This document shows positions 7,663 to 27,499 of a stretch of DNA of 27,499 nucleotides, piece by piece. The stretch comes from a virus. The DNA lies in IMG/VR virus record IMGVR_UViG_3300010379_000044, positions 1 to 27,499 of that record; one strand, written 5' to 3'. The notes under the pieces are model-generated. The model searched no databases, was not told the origin of the DNA, and saw only the letters and a list, made by a program, of their open reading frames with translations. Made by a program: the position numbers and the translations under genes. Each line of letters begins with the position of its first letter. Position 1 is the first letter of the stretch.

Positions 7663-10600
7663 TTAAATACTCCTCGAGGAAGGAACTGGGTGGAGACCCT
7701 TGCCGGTTGCGCCCACGACGAAGGTGAGCCCGGAGATGGAGAGCCCCTCGCCGTACGTCGGGCCTGCCTGGCTCTCCTGGACGGACACCTGGATGCTGCT
7801 GCACTTCTGCCGGGCAACCTTCACCACGTACTCGAGCTGCGGGAAGGCGCCGTCACCCGGGTTGTCGGTATCCGCGATCGTCGAGTCACTCACTCCGCCA
7901 GGGTTGAGCGCGGTGGCGGACGAGACGTTCTCCACCTGGATCGGCGCGCCGTTCCCGTCAAAGGCCACCGAGACAGAGAGGCTGTGCGGGCTGCGGTAGT
8001 CCCCGAGGATCCCGAATCGCCAGACGCGCTGGAAGCCCTGGAGCCCGGCGAAGGAGAGGAAGGACGTGGTCCACCCGGTCAGCACCGGCGCCCCGTTGTC
8101 GGTGTAGCTGCCCGGCGTCTCCTGCCAGATCTGCCCGCCCGCCTTGAGGTACGTCAGGACGCCGTTGAATACAGCCGCGTCAGCCGCGCTGACGTTGGTC
8201 CAGACGCTCCACTTGTCGGCGAAGTAGTCGTACGCGAGGGCCACGCCGCCGGAGGTGAAGAAGACGACCCGCCGGCTGTTGGGCACCATCTGCGCGGAGG
8301 TGACGGTGAGGCCGTTGTACGCCTCCACCGGGGCGCCGATGTACGAGACGGACAAGTCACGCCCGAGCAGGTAGAGGCCCTTCCCGTTGGCCGCCTGGAA
8401 GATGACGCCGCGGGGGGTGAGCACTAGGCTGCGACGGTTGCTGCACCCGACGTCGGAGGGCACGTTCTGCTGGGAGGAGCCGTAGTCAGAGCCGGTGCCG
8501 TTCGCCGCGAGCCCGTCGCCCACCAGGTAGTAAATCCGCTTGGCCGTGAAGAGGACGTTCTTCTCGTCCATCTCGATGCCGCAGGTGAGCGGCCCGCCGT
8601 CCTGCGCCACCGACTGGTAGAGCTGCTGGGCGTTGAACTCGATGGGCACCCCGGCGACGAAGGCCTTCGAGTACACCCACGAGAAGGCATTCTCAGCTGG
8701 GATGAGGGCCACCCGGTTGCGGTACCGCCAGACGTGCAGCGGGGCCGGGGCGGAGAGGTTGGGCAGCTCCGCCGAGGAGTTGTCCGGGTTGAAGATGAGC
8801 TGCGCGTTGCCGGCGATGCTCGTGTCCGAGGCGGTGTCGTTGGGGAAGGCGACGGTGTCTGCGGAGGTGGAGTTGAGGACCGGGCTGGAGATGCTGGTGA
8901 TCCGGTAGAAGACTGAGAGGTTCGCCTGGGTCCGCCAGAGCACGCAGGCGATCACGTTGGTCTTCGAGGTGAGCCGGAGCGTGGGAGTGGTGACGGTGAC
9001 GCCCTGGTTGCTCGGGTTGACCGTGAGAACCGGGGACGGGGCGCTCTGGTGAATGAGCCCCTGGGCGTCCATCCACTCGTAGGTAACGACGTACTGGTAT
9101 GTGCCGGTGAGCCCAGTCGAGGCGAATGCGGAGGACACGTTCTCCGGGTAGAGGTGGAACCCGTGCTCGCAGACGCCCACGCCGTCGTACATCCAGAGGA
9201 TGCCTCCGGTGAGGTGGAGATCGTCCGAGAGCTCCACCGACGTCTGCGCCTGCGTGAAGTCGAAGGCCCCGGCCATCACGCCCGCCTGGGAGAAGATCAG
9301 GCCAGACTGCGCGCCGATCTCAGTGGTCTGCAGGTACGCCGTGGTGAACACGCCGGCGGACGGATTGCTCACCTCAGGGAGGATGCTCTTGGCGGTGAGC
9401 CCCCCGCCGACAGACGGCGCCAGCTTCGCGACCACCGTCGAGCCGGCGAGCAGGAAGTACGTGCTCTGGAGCGCGCTCTGGTAGGCGGCCAGGACGTGGA
9501 CGCGGCCGTTGTAGAGGAAAGGCTTCGATGCGAGACCGACAGAGCGCACCAGTGTGGTGGGCCCGGAGAGCAGCACCGTGGTGTTGACGGTGGGCATCGC
9601 GCCGGCAGGGGTGATGGATCCGCCGTCGAGGTAGGTGGTGACGCCGGCGCCGACCTGGGCGATGAAGAGCTCAGCACCAGTCGAGCGCCCGTAGATTTTG
9701 TACCCAGTGGCGTTGTTCACCGCGGCCCAGTTGACGTTGACGCCGTGGGCAGCCGCGATGGTGAGGGACGTCTCGACGGACGGCGTCGTCTCGCCGTTCG
9801 CGGTGAGCGCCGTCACCCGGTAGAAGTACGTCGAGGCGCCCAGCGTGCCGGCGCCCTGTGTGAATGTGGCGTTGACGGGCGGGTTGAGCCCGAGCGTCGC
9901 CGTCACCTGCTTGATGAGGTTGTTGTACGTTTGGGAGCCAGTCACCTCGTACAGCACCGTGGCCGTGGTGCCCGGGCAAAGGCCGGTGATGTTCCGCACC
10001 GTCCCGGGGGCCGCGTCCAGCGTCGTGAAGTCCAGGAGCTTGTTGGTGAGGATGTAGTCGTAGACGAATACCTTCACCGCTGAGCCCGAGTAGTAAGCCA
10101 CCCAGACGTTCTGCGCGGCGTCGGCGAAGACGGTGCAGCAGGTGGTGAATACCTCGGTGGTGGTGGGGATGAGCTCGGAGCCGACCACGAGCTGCGGCGT
10201 CAGCGCCTTCAGGCTGATCTTGTTGCTGCCCCCGCTGTTGGCGTAGGTGCAGACAATCTGGCCCTGAAGACCGCCAATCACCGTCGCGTCGAAGATCTGC
10301 GAGGTGGCCGGGTCCGTCGCGAAATCCGCCGCCGCGGTTGGACTCGCCGGCGTGGCGGTGGGGATGGCGATGAAGCGCAGGTGGTTGCTGGACGTGTCGT
10401 AGTACAGGATGACGACGTAGTTGCCGATCGCCAGCGGCTTAGGCTTGGAGGCGGTGGCCCCGAGGGAGACGCCGGAGACAATCGGCTGCCCGGTGGCCGT
10501 ATCGAAGACGCTGTACTGCGCCGCGACGCCAGAGGCGTTTGTCTCCCACGTGTAGACGGTGATGCCGTTGGGGTTGACCGCCGAGTCGGGCGTCGTCTCA

Positions 10601-10917
10601 ACGTAGGTGTCCCGGCGGACGGGCCGGGCCGACACGGTGAGGGCCTCGAGCACACCCTTGTCCACCAGGCCCGACGTCGCGAAGCTGTACGCCTCAGCGC
10701 CGGTACCGAGGAGGAGCTGGCTCTTGTAGGTGGCGAGCTGGGCGCCGGCCGGGGCCGCGCCGATCTGGCTGTACCCGTACCGCTTGTTCAGCTTCGGCCA
10801 GGCGTCGAAGCGCAGGTTCTGCGAGGCCACGAGATCGCCGGCCAGCACCCACCGTGGGTCGGTCTTGGTGTCCAGCTTTCCGAGCTTCAGCGGGACGCTG
10901 CGGGGAACGAGAGCCAA
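7663..10917 (-). CDS. gp10-like tail hub / DNA-stabilisation protein, 1084 aa
   Basis: This is a very long beta-rich protein. Its N-terminal segment (LKLGKLDTKTDPR, then LVASQNLRFD) is typical of P22 gp10-like packaged-DNA stabilisation or tail accessory proteins, which plug the portal after packaging. An FN3-like domain lies at about residues 350-440 (YFYRVTALTANGETTPS, then NATGYKIYGRS), followed by repeated blades rich in Tyr/Trp, and a second FN3-like segment further on. I prefer TTG 10917 as the start: GCGAGG lies 8 bases upstream, and the adaptor gene at 15598 starts with the same TTGGCTC behind the same leader. GTG 10950 would add 11 residues and put the leader hairpin inside the coding region. 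The gene heads its own transcription unit. P22 gp10 itself is about 470 residues, so this protein is about twice that length. Confidence 0.72.
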   Translation of the reverse strand: MALVPRSVPLKLGKLDTKTDPRWVLAGDLVASQNLRFDAWPKLNKRYGYSQIGAAPAGAQLATYKSQLLLGTGAEAYSFATSGLVDKGVLEALTVSARPVRRDTYVETTPDSAVNPNGITVYTWETNASGVAAQYSVFDTATGQPIVSGVSLGATASKPKPLAIGNYVVILYYDTSSNHLRFIAIPTATPASPTAAADFATDPATSQIFDATVIGGLQGQIVCTYANSGGSNKISLKALTPQLVVGSELIPTTTEVFTTCCTVFADAAQNVWVAYYSGSAVKVFVYDYILTNKLLDFTTLDAAPGTVRNITGLCPGTTATVLYEVTGSQTYNNLIKQVTATLGLNPPVNATFTQGAGTLGASTYFYRVTALTANGETTPSVETSLTIAAAHGVNVNWAAVNNATGYKIYGRSTGAELFIAQVGAGVTTYLDGGSITPAGAMPTVNTTVLLSGPTTLVRSVGLASKPFLYNGRVHVLAAYQSALQSTYFLLAGSTVVAKLAPSVGGGLTAKSILPEVSNPSAGVFTTAYLQTTEIGAQSGLIFSQAGVMAGAFDFTQAQTSVELSDDLHLTGGILWMYDGVGVCEHGFHLYPENVSSAFASTGLTGTYQYVVTYEWMDAQGLIHQSAPSPVLTVNPSNQGVTVTTPTLRLTSKTNVIACVLWRTQANLSVFYRITSISSPVLNSTSADTVAFPNDTASDTSIAGNAQLIFNPDNSSAELPNLSAPAPLHVWRYRNRVALIPAENAFSWVYSKAFVAGVPIEFNAQQLYQSVAQDGGPLTCGIEMDEKNVLFTAKRIYYLVGDGLAANGTGSDYGSSQQNVPSDVGCSNRRSLVLTPRGVIFQAANGKGLYLLGRDLSVSYIGAPVEAYNGLTVTSAQMVPNSRRVVFFTSGGVALAYDYFADKWSVWTNVSAADAAVFNGVLTYLKAGGQIWQETPGSYTDNGAPVLTGWTTSFLSFAGLQGFQRVWRFGILGDYRSPHSLSVSVAFDGNGAPIQVENVSSATALNPGGVSDSTIADTDNPGDGAFPQLEYVVKVARQKCSSIQVSVQESQAGPTYGEGLSISGLTFVVGATGKGLHPVPSSRSI

Positions 10918-10974
10918 GGGCAAAGCCTCGCGGAAGGGGACTACCGGCACTCCCAGCGAGGTTGCTCCAACCCG
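10918..10974 (-). promoter_or_regulatory. structured 5' leader of the gp10-like gene, hairpin over the ribosome-binding site
   Basis: On the minus strand, CCTCGC (10961-10956) can pair with GCGAGG (10931-10926). The latter is the SD of the TTG start at 10917. An inner pairing GGGA/TCCC lies between them. The leader is nearly identical to the one at 15599-15657. It contains GGAGCAACCTCGCT and AGTCCCCTTCC as conserved blocks. This suggests an RNA element that hides the ribosome-binding site until something opens it. The sequence and pairing are seen; the regulatory effect is inferred. Confidence 0.55.
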
Positions 10975-10985
10975 CTTATACCACG
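10975..10985 (-). promoter_or_regulatory. probable extended -10 promoter for the gp10-like operon
   Basis: The minus strand reads CGTGGTATAAG: TG, one base, then TATAAG (5 of 6 to TATAAT). No convincing -35 box stands about 17 bases upstream. Transcription would begin about 45-50 bases before the TTG start, so the transcript would begin with the structured leader. The same 11 bases occur at 15658-15668 in the same position relative to another leader and gene. Confidence 0.55.
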
Positions 10986-11006
10986 TAGTCGGGCTGACGT
11001 GGTATA
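10977..11006. repeat. perfect 10-bp inverted repeat between divergent promoters
   Basis: TATACCACGT (10977-10986) and ACGTGGTATA (10997-11006) are exact reverse complements separated by 10 bases. Each arm is the -10 region of one of two divergent genes: the gp10-like gene on the minus strand and the lipoprotein on the plus strand. The symmetry could come simply from two copies of one promoter core placed head to head, or could form an operator for a dimeric regulator. Confidence 0.7.
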
Positions 11007-11009
11007 TAG
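10998..11009 (+). promoter_or_regulatory. probable promoter of the lipoprotein gene
   Basis: The plus strand reads CGTGGTATATAG, sharing the 9-base core CGTGGTATA with the two minus-strand promoters. It lies about 20 bases before the start codon, leaving a short untranslated leader that contains AGGAGG (11020-11025). Unlike the other two copies, it is not followed by the hairpin leader. Confidence 0.5.
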
Positions 11010-11030: not shown

Positions 11031-12203
11031 ATGAATAGGCTCGCGGCGGTGTTGGTGGTGGGGTTGGTCGTGGGGTGCGGGTCGCAGACGCCGCAGTCCG
11101 TCACACTCGACGGCCTGGCCCAGAAGGGGCCACTCGTCCAGGGCTCCTCGGTGGTGATTTCCGGACTCGACAACGGTCTCAACTCCACCGGATCCGCCTT
11201 CTCCACCCAGACGGCGGATAACCTGGGCAGCTTCACCGCGGTGATCGCCACCGCCACGCCAGCGCTGGACCTCCACGCGAGCGGCTACTACATGGACGAG
11301 GTGTCCGGGGCCATCTCCAGCGGCCCGGTGGACCTCCACGGCGTGGTGAGTACCTTCGCCTCGCACCCGAAGGTGAACCTCCTGACGACGCTCCAGGCGC
11401 CCGTGCTGCGCACCAACGTGGCGGGGGGCATGACGCTCGGCGACGCTGGAACAGCCTCGGCCGCCCAGGTGCTCTCTGCGCTGGGCGTGAATCTGGCCTC
11501 CGTCCAGGGCTTCGCGTCCTTCTCGAGCATGCAGATCAACGGTACCGGCGACCAGGACGCGGTGCTGCTGGCGATCTCCGCAGTGCTGTCGCAGGCGGCG
11601 CACAACCGGGCCGCGCAGAACGGGTCCTCACCCGCCGGCGAGCTCGCCTTCCTCATCAATCGCTTTGCCTCGGACGTGCAGGCAGGCACGCTGGCCACCG
11701 ACACGGCGTTCCAGTCAGCGTGGCGGGGCGGATCCGCTGGGTTGGACCTCGCCGCGGTACGGGCCAACGTCCAGGGCTACTACGCCAACGTCGGGGTGGC
11801 GGTGACGCCCCCCGCCTTCGAGGACTGGGTGGACAAGGACGGCAGCGGGGTGCTGCCCCGGCGCACCGAGGTAGTGCCGAGCCCCATCTCCTTCACGGAC
11901 GTCCTGGACGCAGGATACGGCCAGACGTACACCGCCACCGCCACGGTGAGCGGGCTGGACGCTGGCGTAGCGGCCTTCGTTGCCTTCGAGAGCGACGCCA
12001 GCACCTCGGCCGTTTCACTGAGCTTCGGCCTCTCGAAGAACGGCACTCCGGTCCAGACCAACCAGTTCATGCCGATCTACTCCTCGGCGCAGAACGGCGA
12101 CACGCTCACCGCCACTGTGACTGCCTCGCAGTCTGGGACGACGCAGCACGCCGTCCTCCAGGTTGGGGCCAGCCAGTTCCCCTGGACGATCCAGACTCCT
12201 TAG
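11031..12203 (+). CDS. secreted lipoprotein, probable phage moron
   Basis: This is the only convincing plus-strand gene. The first 16 residues are a lipoprotein signal peptide: a short basic N-terminus (MNR), a hydrophobic stretch and the lipobox LVVGC with the lipidated Cys at 16. Residues about 24-75 (AQKGPLVQGSSVVISGL and following) look like a carboxypeptidase-regulatory-like beta domain. The segment ASGYYMDEVSG and the helical region after it (about 120-250) match a lipoprotein family I associate with myxobacteria. The C-terminus (about 290-390) is a beta domain rich in Thr/Ser/Val. The gene has its own promoter and a strong SD (AGGAGG, spacing 5). It converges with the tail-fibre gene, overlapping by 4 bases. 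The likely site is the host outer membrane or periplasm. A role in lysogenic conversion or superinfection exclusion is speculation. Confidence 0.8.
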   Translation: MNRLAAVLVVGLVVGCGSQTPQSVTLDGLAQKGPLVQGSSVVISGLDNGLNSTGSAFSTQTADNLGSFTAVIATATPALDLHASGYYMDEVSGAISSGPVDLHGVVSTFASHPKVNLLTTLQAPVLRTNVAGGMTLGDAGTASAAQVLSALGVNLASVQGFASFSSMQINGTGDQDAVLLAISAVLSQAAHNRAAQNGSSPAGELAFLINRFASDVQAGTLATDTAFQSAWRGGSAGLDLAAVRANVQGYYANVGVAVTPPAFEDWVDKDGSGVLPRRTEVVPSPISFTDVLDAGYGQTYTATATVSGLDAGVAAFVAFESDASTSAVSLSFGLSKNGTPVQTNQFMPIYSSAQNGDTLTATVTASQSGTTQHAVLQVGASQFPWTIQTP

Positions 12204-14341: not shown

Positions 14342-15598
14342 TCAGTAGAAGCCCCCGCCCCATGCGCCCATGCCCGGCAGCCCGAGTGGCCCCATGGACT
14401 CCGTCTCCGTCTCGACGACGGTGTTGGGCTCGCCGATGACGCGGTTGGCAATCTCCTTGTCCAGTTCCTCCACCAGCGTGTTCTTTCTGGCGATCTGCGT
14501 CGAGGCGTCGCGCTCCTGCTTCGAGAGGCACTTGATGGTGACGTCCACCACCGGCAGCTCCAGCCACCCGTTCCAGTCCGCAGCGACGTCGTAGGAATTC
14601 ACCAGCGGCGCGAGCTGCGGCACGTACCAGAGGTTGCAGACGAGACCCGCGGCGGGCGCGGTGGGCGTGAAGACGACGTTGCCGTCCATAATTCGCCAGC
14701 GGGGGAACATCCCTGGTACGGCCAGCATGGAGTAGGGCCGGGTGTAGCGGTTCTTCTCCCGGAGCATGAAGGGCAAAAGGGTGATGGGGGCGTTGGGGGA
14801 GATGTTGCCGCCGGCCACCACCTCCAGGAGCTGCTCCTTGAAGAACGCTGGGGCCCCACCGTAGTTGACGCCGTTGGGGAGGGGGAACTGGCTGCTCACC
14901 CCGTCCGTGGTGAATTGGTTCTGCACGGAGAAGTAGTCGTCGCCGAAGCTGGTGGCCATCTTTCCGTAGAGTCGGAGCCGGCTCTGATTCAGGTAGCCGG
15001 TAATTTCCGCGTCGGAGATGTGCGGATCATTCTCGATGTCCGCCTCCTGTCGGATGAGCGCGATCAGCGCGGCCAACGTCATCGCCCCGCCGATGCCCTG
15101 CGTGGCGGACGGCGCCGCCAGCACCCCCGACAGCGACACGCCGTTGAGCGTCAGCCCGTACTCGATGGCCGTCGTCCCTGCAGGGAAGACGGCGTCGAAG
15201 AAGTACGTCCAGCCCGGCACCGCGCTCGCGCTCACGGCTGGCGGGGTAATCGCCGCCTTCGTCGTCTCGTCTCGGTACCAGGTGAAGGTTGGCGGAGTGC
15301 GCTGGCCGTTGGTGGCGCCGAAGTCCAAGAAGAAGCGCGTCTGCTGGAGCCCAGGCTGGAGCAGCACCCCGGACAGCGAGGTGCCGTTCAGCGTGAGGCC
15401 GTAGTCCACCTGCTTGGTGCTGAGGGACGTGGGGATCGGCCACAGCGAGTCGAACTGGTACGTCCAGCCGGCGCCGCCAGTCTGGGAGACGGTGGGCGCA
15501 GGCAGCGCGGCGTGGGTGGAGGAGTCTCGGTACCAGGTGAAGGCCGGGGGCGTCAGGCTGCCGTTGGCGCTACCGAAGTCGAGGATGGTACGAGCCAA
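14342..15598 (-). CDS. head-tail adaptor (gp4-like) fused to two N-terminal repeat domains, 418 aa
   Basis: Two regions are visible. Residues 5-79 and 89-160 are tandem copies of one domain; both contain LDFG, TPP-x-FTWYRD, GWTY-x-FD, YGLTLNG and SLSGVL. Residues 173-418 begin MTLAALIALIRQEADIEN and continue with DAEITGYLNQSRLRLYG and DDYF. This is the pattern of a widespread short-tailed-phage neck protein that bridges portal and tail. In the relatives I recall, the protein begins near the position equivalent to Met173, so the repeat domains are an added N-terminal extension. The start is TTG 15598, with GCGAGG 7 bases upstream inside a hairpin shared with the gp10-like gene. An internal start at 15082 could make the adaptor alone. 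The C-terminus is Gly-rich. Confidence 0.75.
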   Translation of the reverse strand: MARTILDFGSANGSLTPPAFTWYRDSSTHAALPAPTVSQTGGAGWTYQFDSLWPIPTSLSTKQVDYGLTLNGTSLSGVLLQPGLQQTRFFLDFGATNGQRTPPTFTWYRDETTKAAITPPAVSASAVPGWTYFFDAVFPAGTTAIEYGLTLNGVSLSGVLAAPSATQGIGGAMTLAALIALIRQEADIENDPHISDAEITGYLNQSRLRLYGKMATSFGDDYFSVQNQFTTDGVSSQFPLPNGVNYGGAPAFFKEQLLEVVAGGNISPNAPITLLPFMLREKNRYTRPYSMLAVPGMFPRWRIMDGNVVFTPTAPAAGLVCNLWYVPQLAPLVNSYDVAADWNGWLELPVVDVTIKCLSKQERDASTQIARKNTLVEELDKEIANRVIGEPNTVVETETESMGPLGLPGMGAWGGGFY

Positions 15599-15657
15599 GG
15601 GAGCGCCTCGCGCGGGAAGGGGACTGCCGCACTTCCAAGCGAGGTTGCTCCAGGGCC
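15599..15657 (-). promoter_or_regulatory. structured 5' leader of the adaptor gene, hairpin over the ribosome-binding site
   Basis: On the minus strand, CCTCGC (15644-15639) pairs with GCGAGG (15611-15606), the SD of the TTG start at 15598. An inner stem GGAAG/CTTCC lies between. Compared with the leader at 10918-10974, the outer stem is identical, the inner stem uses different bases, and the loop differs by small indels. That pattern suggests conserved structure, although two copies are too few to prove it. Confidence 0.55.
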
Positions 15658-15668
15658 CTTATACCACG
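15658..15668 (-). promoter_or_regulatory. probable extended -10 promoter for the adaptor/tail-fibre operon
   Basis: The minus strand reads CGTGGTATAAG, identical over 11 bases to the promoter at 10975-10985 and at nearly the same distance from the start codon (59 versus 57 bases). It begins immediately after the stop codon of the 80-aa gene, so this gene boundary is a likely start of a new transcript. No -35 box was recognised. Confidence 0.55.
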
Positions 15669-15911
15669 CTACCGCTCATATGCGCGAGGCGGCCCTAAAA
15701 CACTCGCGGGCCGGTACGGTTCGAACCTGTCCATGATCCACTGGAACAGCTCGAACCGGGCACCGAAGCACTCGACACACAGGGGTTCGGCGAGGTCCTC
15801 GGTGTCGGCCAGCATCGGCACCTGTCGCCGGCAGAGCGAGCACCGCCAGCCGTTCGGATTGTAGGCCGTGCAGGCCGGCGTGCACTCGTCGGCGGCGGAG
15901 TGGGTGTGCAT
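15669..15911 (-). CDS. small Cys-rich putative zinc-binding protein, 80 aa
   Basis: The protein has six Cys: C10 and C14 near the N-terminus, CSLC at residues 24-27 and CVEC at 45-48. The last two CxxC pairs, 21 residues apart, fit a zinc ribbon or treble-clef knuckle. The C-terminal part is helical (FELFQWIMDRFEPYR). The SD (TAGGAC close to the ATG) is poor. The gene follows the 39-codon frame after 28 bases and ends exactly at the promoter of the adaptor operon. I do not recognise the family. It could be a small DNA- or RNA-binding regulator. Confidence 0.6.
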   Translation of the reverse strand: MHTHSAADECTPACTAYNPNGWRCSLCRRQVPMLADTEDLAEPLCVECFGARFELFQWIMDRFEPYRPASVLGPPRAYER

Positions 15912-15939
15912 GTCCTACGGTAGCGCCCGGGGCTGACGT

Positions 15940-16059
15940 TCAGTGCCTCCGGTGGATGCGGTAGCCCACCGCCCTGGCCACCAGCTTCCGCTCGCCGTTC
16001 CGTCGGAAGTGAAACCAGACCGCCACAACCACCCAGGCCTCTTCCCGGCGCGCCCTCAT
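15940..16059 (-). CDS. 39-residue basic hypothetical protein
   Basis: A short frame begins with an ATGA overlap on the stop of the metallopeptidase-like gene and has GGTGGAG 7 bases upstream, which makes translation plausible. The product is basic (many Arg and His) with a hydrophobic stretch, WVVVAVWFHF, at residues 9-18. No family is recognised. It may be a real small gene or a non-functional short frame. Confidence 0.4.
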   Translation of the reverse strand: MRARREEAWVVVAVWFHFRRNGERKLVARAVGYRIHRRH

Positions 16060-16469
16060 TGTGGAGCTCCACCGGGCGCGGCGGTGATGAGCCGGCACGC
16101 CTCGTCGAAGGCGACGGGGTGGCCGTACAGCGGCCCGGAGAGCCTCTGGGCGATGAAGGTGAGGAATCTGGCCCGCCCGCGGGTGTACGCCTCGCAGAAC
16201 TTCGCGTACTCGGCGCGGTGGGCTGCCAGCTCCTCGTCGAGGAGGAAGCGCCGGTCCACCAGGTAGCGCTCCCACCACGACGCGACGCCCATGGCGAGCT
16301 GCCGCCGGCCGTGCTCGAGCTCGTGGGCGAGCAGCTCGTGGCCCGGATCCCCGCCGTCGGGCACGTACAGCACGTCGCCCCAAGCGAAGAGGACGCCGAG
16401 CTTGTCGGCGCACGGGAAGCGACGGAGGACGGCCTCGAAGTTCGGCGGCCTCTCCTGGAGAATTCTCAT
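16056..16469 (-). CDS. putative zinc metallopeptidase-like protein (HExxH), 137 aa
   Basis: Residues 49-53 read HELEH, a classic HExxH zinc-binding and catalytic motif, within HELLAHELEHGRRQ. A following acidic cluster (LLDEELAAHRAEY, about 76-88) could supply a third ligand. The length fits a minimal zincin, such as small M48- or SprT-like domains. It has no signal peptide. It lies in the slot between scaffold and adaptor where other phages may carry a maturation protease, but head proteases are usually serine-type and lie before the scaffold. A role in head maturation, host takeover or lysis cannot be told apart here. It starts by ATGA overlap with the 132-aa gene. Confidence 0.6.
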   Translation of the reverse strand: MRILQERPPNFEAVLRRFPCADKLGVLFAWGDVLYVPDGGDPGHELLAHELEHGRRQLAMGVASWWERYLVDRRFLLDEELAAHRAEYAKFCEAYTRGRARFLTFIAQRLSGPLYGHPVAFDEACRLITAAPGGAPQ

Positions 16470-16864
16470 TGCAGCGTCTTCGAGGGCTCGGGCTCCGGCG
16501 GCGCCTCCTGGGCCCCGACGAGCTCGAGGAACTTCACCTCCCAGGCGTCGTCGGGCGGTGGATCCTCATTGAGCGGCCTGAGCACCCATGGTTCCGTCGG
16601 CGAGTAGGGGACGCATCCAGGGTGGAAGAAGTAGACGTGGAGCTCGCCCCAGGGGTTGCGCCGGACCGCCCACACGACGCTCTCGACGGGGTGCTTGAGC
16701 CTCAGCATCTCCTCGCGCAGCCCGGTGAGTACCTGCATCACCTGATCGCGGTTGCCCACCGGGTGGTTGCTGTGGCCGAGGTTGCCCGGCGGCCACGGCA
16801 GCTGAATCTCCGTGGCGCGCTTGCTCGGCCGCGCGCCATTCATCGTCCCTGGGAATTTCGGCAT
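16466..16864 (-). CDS. hypothetical protein, 132 aa
   Basis: The gene has a strong SD (AAAGGAG, 5 bases before the ATG). The protein has a polar N-terminus, a predicted helix (QVMQVLTGLREEMLRL, about 42-58), two strands (VESVVWAVRR and WGELHVYFF) and an acidic Pro-rich C-terminus. The mixed alpha/beta order and size are compatible with a small globular factor. I do not recognise the family. It shares an ATGA overlap with the metallopeptidase-like gene, so the two products may act together. Confidence 0.6.
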   Translation of the reverse strand: MPKFPGTMNGARPSKRATEIQLPWPPGNLGHSNHPVGNRDQVMQVLTGLREEMLRLKHPVESVVWAVRRNPWGELHVYFFHPGCVPYSPTEPWVLRPLNEDPPPDDAWEVKFLELVGAQEAPPEPEPSKTLQ

Positions 16865-16901
16865 GTCGTCTCCTTTGGAATTGCTGCGTGGCCCTGTCGG
16901 A

Positions 16902-17132
16902 TTACTCCCTGCTCCTCAGCGCGGAGTGGCTGGCCAGGCGCCACCAGCGCTTCTCCATGGCCCACTGCATCCGGTAACCGACGCCGTACACGGCGACGGC
17001 CCACGGGATGCCGAACGCGAAGAAGAAGGCCCAGTCGCGCGCGTACCAGGCGTGCACGAGCAGCGCGATCCCGAGCCACTCGTCCAGGAATAGAAACAAC
17101 CGGCTCCAAGTCGGCGTGTAGTCCACCCTCAT
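16902..17132 (-). CDS. small two-helix membrane protein, holin-like candidate, 76 aa
   Basis: Two hydrophobic helices are visible: about residues 11-29 (LFLFLDEWLGIALLVHA) and 33-52 (DWAFFFAFGIPWAVAVYGVG). A basic, Trp-rich C-terminal tail of about 22 residues follows. The size, two helices and charged tail fit a class II holin, but no endolysin gene lies in the window to support that. The SD is good (GAGGAG, spacing 5), and the gene follows the scaffold-like gene after 12 bases. It could equally be a membrane anchor or a morphogenesis factor. Confidence 0.58.
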   Translation of the reverse strand: MRVDYTPTWSRLFLFLDEWLGIALLVHAWYARDWAFFFAFGIPWAVAVYGVGYRMQWAMEKRWWRLASHSALRSRE

Positions 17133-18242: not shown

Positions 18243-19271
18243 TCAGATCGCGCCCGTGGCGCCTTGTGGTGGAAGCATCGGTGACACCGGCGGTGCCGCG
18301 CCGCGGCCCATCGGCGCGCCACCAGCAGCACCGCCGGCCGTGGCAGCCATCGCCGCGGCGGCCTGCTGCTGCAGCTGCGCCTGCTGGGCCTTCTGCTCGA
18401 GCCTGTCGCACCCCGCGAGCCAGTTCCGCAGGAGGCCGAGCTTCTCCTCCTCCATCCCGTTGGCCGCGCCCAAGGCGAATTCCTGCAGCCCCAGCTTGCG
18501 CGCCATGGGGATGGGCATGAATGGATCCGGCTGCTGGGGCTTGCCGTCCTCGACGATTTTGTCCAGGCACATGGTTACCCAGTCCTCGAAGGCCCCGAGG
18601 AGGGACTGGGCCTGGGCGAGGTCCGGAAAGTTGAGCAGCTTCCGGCCCAGCTCTGCGTCGATGAGGCCGGCGCGCATCCAGTCCGTCACCGTGGCCGTCT
18701 TCCCCGCAGGGGTGCTGGGCAGCGCGGAAATGGAGTACCCGCGCAGGACGTACTCGTCCTCCTCGAGCTTCACCGCCTTCCAGTCGAGGCTGCGCAGGAA
18801 GCGGTGCCCGGGCAGCGCCGAGGAGGAGACGGGCGCCCGCAGCTTGTAGCCCTTCTCGCGCTCGAAGATGTCCCTGACGGCGTCAATTTGGCAGCGAGTG
18901 ACGTCCAGGCGGAACTCCTCGTAGCCCTTCTGCGCGTACGAGAAGCCCTCCGACTCGATGTCGTGCTGCATCCGCTTGGCCTCGCCCGATTCCAGCTTCG
19001 GGTTGTCCTGGCCCGTCCCCGACAGCTGAGAGAGGCGAGCAATCTCGAAGGCGTTGGCCTTGATTTCCGCGCGGTGCCGGAAGTACTGCTCGTTGAGGGC
19101 CGGCGGCGTGAGAAATTGCGGCACCATGCCGCCGCGCGGGACGTGGAGGATGGTGCCGATTTTGTCCTGGAAGTGCTGATCCGGGACGGTGCCATTCTCC
19201 ACGGCGATGCGGAAGGCGGCCATCATCCGGAAGGCCCGCTGAAACATGATGTTGAGGTGGTTCATCTCCAC
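18243..19271 (-). CDS. portal protein, C-terminal part (separate frame)
   Basis: This frame continues the portal started at 20259. Its first ATG (19271) begins MEMNHLNIMFQRAF, but the protein-like sequence in the same frame already starts at TGG 19295 (PETSGSQVE), which follows naturally from the end of the upstream part. Visible features are helical stem and wing segments (EFRLDVTRCQIDAVRDIF, ALPGHRFLRSLDW) and a Gln/Ala/Pro-rich C-terminal tail from about residue 300, typical of portal barrels in short-tailed phages. If joined at 19296-19299, the complete portal would be 671 residues. Translation of this part alone from ATG 19271 is possible, with GGTGGAG just upstream, but would lack half of the portal. 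Confidence 0.72.
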   Translation of the reverse strand: MEMNHLNIMFQRAFRMMAAFRIAVENGTVPDQHFQDKIGTILHVPRGGMVPQFLTPPALNEQYFRHRAEIKANAFEIARLSQLSGTGQDNPKLESGEAKRMQHDIESEGFSYAQKGYEEFRLDVTRCQIDAVRDIFEREKGYKLRAPVSSSALPGHRFLRSLDWKAVKLEEDEYVLRGYSISALPSTPAGKTATVTDWMRAGLIDAELGRKLLNFPDLAQAQSLLGAFEDWVTMCLDKIVEDGKPQQPDPFMPIPMARKLGLQEFALGAANGMEEEKLGLLRNWLAGCDRLEQKAQQAQLQQQAAAAMAATAGGAAGGAPMGRGAAPPVSPMLPPQGATGAI

Positions 19272-20259
19272 CTGGGAGCCTGAGGTCTCGGGCCAGGGGA
19301 ATGCCGTGCCACCCCGCGGTGTCCTTCTTCCAGCGGTACACTGAGAAGGGGAAGCGCTTCTTCTTCCAGACGCGCTCCTCGGGCGGCGTGAGGATGCAGT
19401 TGGAGAGGAAGAGGACGTGCCGGCCGTCGTCCGTCGTCTCGCCGTCCTCGTCCACGCCCGAGGGGAGGCGCCAGGCCTCGCCGACGTAGACGATGTCTGA
19501 GAGGCCCTGGTACTCGCCGAGCCCGAGCGGATCCGTGTCGTGGTTGGACTTGATGGCCTCGGCCACCTTCTTGTCGTCGCCCCACGCGTCGAGGACGACT
19601 TCCCTGTCCATGGCCTTTATGCGGAACACCTGGCGGGGCTCGCCGTAGAAGCCGTCGGCGTAGTCGACGAACATCTCCAGCCCCATCACACGCTCGGACT
19701 TCACCCGCTTGGTGGCCCAGTCGGCGAAGGTGTGGACAATCCCGCACGGGGTGAGGAGCGCGTCCCGCAGGACGTCGGGTCCGATCTCGTCCATGCGCGT
19801 CTCGTAGTTGACGCCGTCGCCGAACTGGCTGAGCTTCTTTGCGCGCCGTTGCTGCCGGTAGTCCCCGCCGTTGGTGAGGAACTGGGTGGAGAGGTTCTCC
19901 TTCGTCAGCTTCGACACCAGCGCGTCCACCACAATGCCGATGACGTTATACGTGAGCCGCCCGGACAGCGACGGGTGCACGCCGTGCGCGGCGTGGTGGT
20001 GCGGCACGCCGAAGGAAGAGCCAGGGACGCGCCCGGCGTAGAGGCCGGAGCCGATGAGGCTCTCCTGGTCCAGCTGGCTCTGGTTGTCCTTGATGTGCTT
20101 GATGGTGGACATGAGCGCGCCTGGCACCTGCTCGTCCGGCAGCAGGTGCCACTTCTGGCCGGGTGGCGTCTCCTTCCGGCTCGCGCGCTTCGGCGCACCC
20201 TTCTCGCTCATGCTCCCGAGCTTCCCGCCGCTCGAGCGTCTACCTTTGCTGATCGCCAC
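18883..20259 (-). CDS. portal protein, N-terminal part (real sequence ends near 19297)
   Basis: Residues 1-321 are portal-like: a basic disordered start, DNQSQLDQESLIGSGLYAG, a SGRLTYNVIGIVVDALVSK helix, QFGDGVNYETRMDEIG, and the domain ending FPFSVYRWKKDTAGWHGIP. After residue 321 the frame stays open to 18883, but the composition becomes Arg/Pro/His/Gly junk typical of a shifted frame. The real continuation is one base over, after CCCC at 19296-19299. Start GTG 20259 has GGAG upstream and overlaps the preceding gene by 20 bases; ATG 20211 is an alternative. Portals form the dodecameric DNA channel at one capsid vertex. The break is a programmed shift, a mutation or a sequence error. Confidence 0.72.
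   Translation of the reverse strand: MAISKGRRSSGGKLGSMSEKGAPKRASRKETPPGQKWHLLPDEQVPGALMSTIKHIKDNQSQLDQESLIGSGLYAGRVPGSSFGVPHHHAAHGVHPSLSGRLTYNVIGIVVDALVSKLTKENLSTQFLTNGGDYRQQRRAKKLSQFGDGVNYETRMDEIGPDVLRDALLTPCGIVHTFADWATKRVKSERVMGLEMFVDYADGFYGEPRQVFRIKAMDREVVLDAWGDDKKVAEAIKSNHDTDPLGLGEYQGLSDIVYVGEAWRLPSGVDEDGETTDDGRHVLFLSNCILTPPEERVWKKKRFPFSVYRWKKDTAGWHGIPLARDLRLPGGDEPPQHHVSAGLPDDGRLPHRRGEWHRPGSALPGQNRHHPPRPARRHGAAISHAAGPQRAVLPAPRGNQGQRLRDCSPLSAVGDGPGQPEAGIGRGQADAARHRVGGLLVRAEGLRGVPPGRHSLPN
19296..19299 (-). other. frame-change site in the portal gene (CCCC run)
   Basis: The minus strand reads GGC ATT CCC CTG GCC in the upstream frame. Skipping one C gives GGC ATT CCC TGG CCC GAG, which joins GIP to WPETSGSQVE and restores a continuous portal. 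Removing one base is the smallest change that does so. CCC-C is a known +1 slip-prone sequence for proline tRNA, but no stop codon follows to stall the ribosome, so a one-base indel is at least as likely. Confidence 0.6.
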
Positions 20260-26830: not shown

Positions 26831-27010
26831 TTACTCCCACCTCTCTGCGCAGCGTCGTGTTGCCCGCTCGTAGGCGATGACGGCCCTTTCGCTGGGCTCC
26901 ATCGGCAGCGGCGGAGCCAACGGCTGGGCGTCGCGCGCCCGGTGCTTGGCCATCAGCTTGAGGACGGCCGCCCACTCCTTGAATGTCGGCCGCTTCTTGA
27001 GCTTCCTCAT
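26831..27010 (-). CDS. small basic hypothetical protein, 59 aa
   Basis: This complete short frame opens with an ATGA overlap on the stop of the repeat-protein gene and ends 2 bases before the next start. The product begins [20 protein letters not shown], a basic amphipathic helix. A Pro-rich middle ([10 protein letters not shown]) and a second helix ([20 protein letters not shown]) follow. It could be a DNA-binding or assembly peptide. No family is recognised. Confidence 0.58.
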
Positions 27011-27483
27011 GCGGCGTCGTCCTTGAGCGCCAGCATCCTATCGAGCAACTCGAGCGCCGACTTCTGGAGCCGCTTCACGGTGGGATCGAGAGCCTTCTCG
27101 GCGGCGCTCTCGGCGGCGCTCCTGGCGGCGCTCCCGGCGGCGCTCCAGGCGGCGCTCCAGGCGGCGCTCTCGGCGGCGCTCCAGGCGGCGCTCCTGGCGG
27201 CGCTCCAGGCGGCGCTCTCGGCGGCGCTCTCGGCGGCGCTCCAGGCGGCGCTCCCGGCGGCGCTCCAGGCGGCGCTCCCGGCGGCGCTCCAGGCGGCGCT
27301 CACGGCGGCGCTCCTGGCGGCGCTCCTGGCGGCGCTCCAGGCGGCGCTCACGGCGGCGCTCCAGGCGGCGCTCCTGGCGGCGCTCTCGGCGGCGCTCCAG
27401 GCGGCGCTCTCGGCGGCGCTCCAGGCGGCGCTCTCGGCGGCGCTCTCGGCGGCGCTCCAGGCGGCGCTCTCGGCGGCGCTCAA
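27007..27483 (-). CDS. Ala-rich tetrapeptide-repeat protein (5' end may lie beyond the window)
   Basis: The protein is 32 perfect copies of Ser-Ala-Ala-x (residues 2-129) followed by a 29-residue helical, charged tail ([19 protein letters not shown] and following). The variable position is Trp 12 times, Glu 10, Arg 5, Gly 3 and Val 2. TTG 27483 is the first start codon visible, but the frame is open to the right edge, so the true start may be outside. Such Ala-rich repeats probably form a long helix, with the x residue drifting around it because the 4-residue period exceeds 3.6. I recall similar Trp/Ala repeat proteins of unknown role in phages and high-GC bacteria. Function is not known. The gene overlaps the next by ATGA. 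Confidence 0.65.
27097..27480 (-). repeat. 12-bp tandem repeat array, 32 in-frame units
   Basis: The unit on the minus strand is AGCGCCGCCNNG. Nine bases are constant in all units; the last codon is TGG, GAG, AGG, GGG or GTG. The array is in frame with the gene that carries it and ends exactly where the non-repetitive tail begins. It has no spacers and is not a CRISPR. Long arrays of this kind can gain or lose units by slippage. Confidence 0.9.
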
Positions 27484-27499
27484 AGATCCATGCGCGCGC

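Follow-up and report, generated by a model that had tools for sequence, protein, structure and literature searches.

The duplicated unit and the genes that follow it

The window analysed here is the whole of the 27,499-base virus record IMGVR_UViG_3300010379_000044 (positions 1–27,499), which derives from an uncultured podophage and is probably a fragment of its genome. On its minus strand are two similar units, at 10985–10915 (copy 1) and 15668–15596 (copy 2), which share 82.3% identity over 79 columns (E 1.5e-14) when copy 1 is searched against the whole window, and 81% over 54 nt with an ungapped repeat finder. An earlier note on this DNA had described twin units of about 70 bases at these positions and on this strand, each with a promoter, a leader, a hairpin covering the SD and a UUG start; both units are indeed present, and this anatomy is recognizable in each from the sequence and the predicted fold. 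Each copy consists of the promoter-like core CGTGGTATAAG, a 51–53-nt leader, GCGAGG and the UUG start, with CGTGGTATAAG, TGGAGCAACCTCGCT, AGTCCCCTTC, GCGAGG and CCCTTGGCTC common to both. The similarity extends no further than the start codons of two genes whose products are unrelated, and the duplicated element is thus a regulatory unit rather than a gene.

Copy 1 leads into the tail nozzle gene (a gp10/gp12-like hub; 7663–10917, minus strand), and copy 2 into the gene for a head-to-tail adaptor (14342–15598, minus strand). The nozzle model (pLDDT 81.5) matches virion and tail chains of SU10, the tail and muzzle assemblies of crAss001, P22 gp10-gp26 and the T7 tail complex, and the adaptor model (mean pLDDT 64, confident in the core only) matches portal-tail chains of VP1, SU10, GP4 and KHP30. 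These fold matches bear out the earlier assignment of the two products as a podophage adaptor and a P22 gp10/T7-type nozzle. The adaptor carries an N-terminal extension of about 150 residues containing two similar repeats; in the related 57,992-base contig G001 a domain related to it opens a separate 538-aa protein, and the length of the extension varies among relatives.

The UUG starts also hold (TTG at 10917–10915 and at 15598–15596). Nozzle proteins of relatives align from the residue encoded at 10917, and the G001 nozzle, which is 56% identical to that of the window, opens with GTG-GCA-CTC, giving the same M-A-L. A GTG at 10950 was considered as the hub start and rejected, as homology begins at TTG 10917, and in copy 2 the corresponding GTG and TTG 15598 are in different frames; a leader peptide starting there is likewise unconserved, for the same reason of frame.

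Promoter-like core and predicted leader hairpin

The cores of copy 1 (10975–10985) and copy 2 (15658–15668), both on the minus strand, match each other in sequence and are of the extended −10 type with no −35; that is, TGGTATAAG resembles an extended −10 element standing by itself. The last base of the −10 is G rather than T, which is atypical for sigma-70, and a consensus scan found no sigma-70 type site. A motif scan identified a third core, CGTGGTATATA, at 10998–11008 on the plus strand, which is divergent, has no hairpin leader and lies ahead of a lipoprotein-like gene at 11031–12203. When up to one mismatch is allowed, CGTGGTATA has three sites in the window (the third beginning at plus-strand 10998), all three of them exact and each just 5′ of a gene on its own strand, an arrangement like that of a phage late promoter set. 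Shuffled windows contain a mean of 0.92 such sites and at least three in 7/100 shuffles; the motif count alone is therefore modest evidence, to which position and exactness add. Because the two divergent cores are inverted repeats of each other, we considered a palindromic operator, which we rejected since copy 2 has one half only.

The six bases 3′ of TATAAG differ between the copies (CGGGTT versus GGCCCT), the T at −1 excepted, and the identical block GGAGCAACCTCGCT begins exactly at the expected +1, position 10968 in copy 1 and 15651 in copy 2. This coincidence is the best argument that the sequence offers for a conserved transcript end, with the +1 itself being a predicted position. A T7-like polymerase, if used, would start about 7 nt earlier; PF00940 (T7-type RNA polymerase) was not found in six relatives, in a search whose positive control also gave no match.

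From these starts the predicted leader of the nozzle gene is 51 nt long (10918–10968, minus strand) and that of the adaptor gene 53 nt (15599–15651, minus strand), and each is predicted to fold as one hairpin, at −22.3 and −26.6 kcal/mol respectively. The 5′ arm CCTCGC lies at 10956–10961 in copy 1 and 15639–15644 in copy 2, and the SD-bearing 3′ arm GCGAGG at 10926–10931 and 15606–15611, all on the minus strand; as had been noted earlier, the two arms are exactly complementary, and GCGAGG stands 8 nt (copy 1) and 7 nt (copy 2) from the TTG. In both predicted folds GAGG is paired with a probability of at least 0.99 (unpaired at most 0.01), and these two SDs are the least accessible among the 16 window genes with an SD of at least 4 nt. 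The predicted structures thus resemble cis-acting RBS-sequestering hairpins in that the SD is paired.

It is possible that only a promoter whose initially transcribed sequence is conserved, or the site of a regulator, has been duplicated, and that the hairpin is incidental in a genome of 69% G+C. Leaders whose ends are set exactly at the predicted +1 and the start codon have z-scores of −1.9 (13/200 shuffles) for copy 1 and −3.0 (0/200) for copy 2; longer windows give −0.7 and −0.4 and fold no better than shuffles, so that the significance of the hairpin hinges on boundaries chosen from the predicted +1. When the upstream part is shuffled, 81/1000 (copy 1) and 21/1000 (copy 2) sequences hide the SD equally well, i.e. 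2–8% of shuffled leaders, and both arms are kept about 10% of the time in simulated divergence; these statistics are further limited by the two leaders being duplicates and not independent. The loop bases AGUCCCC are as conserved as those of the stem. Against an incidental fold, the leaders cut at +1 fold end to end in both copies despite differences in their 3′ outer strands, and the exceptional inaccessibility of both SDs points the same way. We regard this explanation as doubtful, if far from negligible.

Relatives and accessory genes

A nozzle profile search recovered 80 related loci, and a covariance model of the leader was run on 1.36 Mb from 85 sources, namely 84 loci plus the window. 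It found only the two copies in the window, with the next match at E 2.3. The earlier note had taken a lack of leader conservation or covariation upstream of homologous genes in relatives as refuting its proposal of a switch; in the closest relatives (48–56% nozzle protein identity) the leader is absent at both genes, a pattern with which a lineage-specific switch is still compatible. In G001 the adaptor gene directly follows the previous gene; some 48 nt separate the nozzle gene from a divergent gene, and a hairpin of this kind is absent. The nozzle of L015 is about 48% identical, and its start overlaps the stop of the gene before it. Across the related loci, about 10 nt or less usually separates the nozzle start from the preceding gene. 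The leader is thus not an ancestral feature of these genes. One candidate for a hub promoter in G001, GTGGGATAAG, was rejected as it overlaps the hub start codon.

Wider searches added no members. Scanning viral contigs for leader patterns yielded nothing, or matches judged to be chance that lacked the promoter-leader-start context; single-protein searches of viral contigs with the whole hub, adaptor and terminase yielded zero relatives, and no relative was found among genome contigs. With tblastn against phages the adaptor had no match, the terminase one (23.6% identity), and the hub a domain match of 10% coverage.

Several relatives have promoter-like repeats of their own, seen at loci L080, L031, L033, L032 and L089. 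G002 contains TAATACGCTATATTA four times, exact and all on one strand, L089 has a shared 53-nt block, and different ones occur in L031/L033 and in L032; they precede a decoration-type gene, the gene after the nozzle, and later genes. The likeness to the window is that several genes of the structural cluster are preceded by exact repeats of a short promoter-like core (e.g. TAATACGCTATATTA in G002 and the L089 block), although both the sequences and the genes differ, and in the window the conserved segment runs on through the leader to the start codon. The window core is most readily understood as the counterpart, in this phage, of such genome-specific elements. We also note that terminator-like hairpins are present just 5′ of the adaptor gene in L042, L050, L082, L084 and others, so that transcription in the group may be controlled at this junction.

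Both copies are preceded by accessory genes, and relatives have other content at those places. Next to copy 1 is the divergent lipoprotein-like gene (11031–12203, plus strand; 390 aa), which lies between genes that are adjacent in relatives and has a promoter core, as a moron would, with no clear terminator and with a composition that does not set it apart, its G+C matching that of its neighbours (window G+C 0.688). In moron insertions in structural operons (PMC4378225), too, two genes that adjoin each other in relatives are separated by an additional gene that has a promoter of its own; the window differs from them in that the inserted gene opposes the operon, lacks a clear terminator and has the G+C of its surroundings, and in that the hairpin leader serves the downstream phage gene and not the inserted one. 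Opposite-strand genes precede the nozzle in G001 as well, and one of them encodes a HEIGH-motif protein. In both the window (11031–12203, plus strand) and G001 (L014:1-948) the opposite-strand genes directly before the nozzle have lipoprotein- or signal-like N-termini, with the genes themselves being unrelated, and this site is a possible hotspot for accessory genes.

Upstream of copy 2 and the adaptor gene are small genes without structural homologues (15669–17132, minus strand), one of whose products has a HELLAHELEH stretch and another of which is Cys-rich; G001 has the major capsid gene and two more genes at this position. No major capsid gene is present between scaffold and adaptor in the window, by comparison with L095 of G001, and with the G001 capsid gene unmatched here, that of this phage may lie beyond the fragment. 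Two further features of the window are of note. First, the portal gene (18243–20259, minus strand) is divided between two frames that overlap near 19271, compared with one open 663-aa frame in G001, which may reflect a sequencing or assembly error, a frameshift signal or real decay. Secondly, a repeat search shows that 27004–27493 contains a 12-base repeat array of about 26 overlapping copies, with a minus-strand Ala-rich repetitive protein (SAAWSAAE...).

Readings of the duplicated unit

We favor the explanation, at a probability of roughly 0.55, that the unit is a lineage-specific late promoter-leader cassette which has been copied to two restart points of the tail operon beside accessory genes, with a conjectural role for the hairpin. 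A promoter and its short 5′ leader would have been duplicated, with each copy directly following accessory genes, and since both copies are so placed, their positions make sense as transcription restarts: copy 1 would restart transcription after the divergent lipoprotein-like gene and into the nozzle, and copy 2 after the small genes and into the adaptor. RNA polymerase would initiate at GGAGCAACCUCGC..., about 7 nt past TATAAG, and the 51–53-nt leader would form one hairpin, extending from its first base to the base before the UUG, or one before that, with the SD inside it. A ribosome-binding site that is both weak and partly closed (a 4-nt SD, a UUG, and pairing) would give modest constitutive output of adaptor and nozzle, and the hairpin may lower or standardize translation of these UUG-started genes, or protect the 5′ end.

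The closest parallels are hairpins of T-even phages that sequester the RBS, described for I-TevI, segB and Aeh1 mobE and for T4 soc, e, 25 and 26 (PMC2988022). As in those, a phage gene has a promoter directly upstream and an RNA stem predicted over its SD. In the T-even phages, late transcripts start such that the hairpin cannot form (PMC2988022), whereas the core in the window precedes both arms and the hairpin is expected on its own transcripts; the genes here are also tail structural genes, and the unit is duplicated.

The earlier note proposed an RNA switch or operator in which a trigger (a virion protein, a small Cys-rich protein or an antisense RNA) opens or locks the hairpin and so matches the amounts of adaptor and nozzle. 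The same SD-covering hairpin does precede both genes, and its conserved loop could serve as a binding site. The inner stems, however, which had been described as built from different bases, are not: the 3′ arm CUUCC is the same in both and the 5′ arms are GGGAG (copy 1) and GGAAG (copy 2), with one pair differing between them (G-U versus A-U) through a substitution in the 5′ arm. The stem that holds the SD is the same in both, and between the two copies, which have zero further members, there is no compensatory (double-sided) change. Rfam gives no match in the window at gathering scores and none around copy 1 up to E 5, no trigger was found, and the leader is absent from these genes in the 84 related stretches. 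As the nozzle gene abuts the preceding gene in most relatives, matched control through leaders of this kind is not generally required. Joint translational control of this kind is thus unsupported, and we consider it improbable. A kindred proposal, of a portable cassette whose hairpin spans the stretch between +1 and the start codon, copied before structural genes so that one trans-acting factor coordinates adaptor and nozzle, seems to us just as unlikely.

We attach similarly low weight to the 5′-terminal hairpin being an mRNA stabilizer or a nuclease-processing site with little effect on translation. The predicted first base of the leader is paired, which would place the hairpin at the very 5′ end in both copies, but this leaves unexplained why the SD itself forms the stem, and a processing site was not identified. 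Lastly, T4-type timing, in which the hairpin forms on upstream read-through transcripts only and transcripts from the gene's own promoter start inside it with the SD free, has precedents in T4 late genes and in homing endonucleases (PMC2988022) and would also fit a promoter-like core directly upstream, yet it is very improbable here, as in each copy CCTCGC comes after both the core and the predicted +1, so that the unit's own transcript would carry the whole hairpin, and the gene upstream of copy 1 is on the opposite strand.

A late promoter-leader cassette at two restart points suggests that a podophage may keep its tail genes transcribed after the entry of accessory genes by duplicating a promoter along with its leader, and that in this phage group the sequences of late promoters change more quickly than the genes they drive. 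If the hairpin is functional, the two copies in one genome would be a natural pair for testing leader-hairpin control of neck protein ratios.
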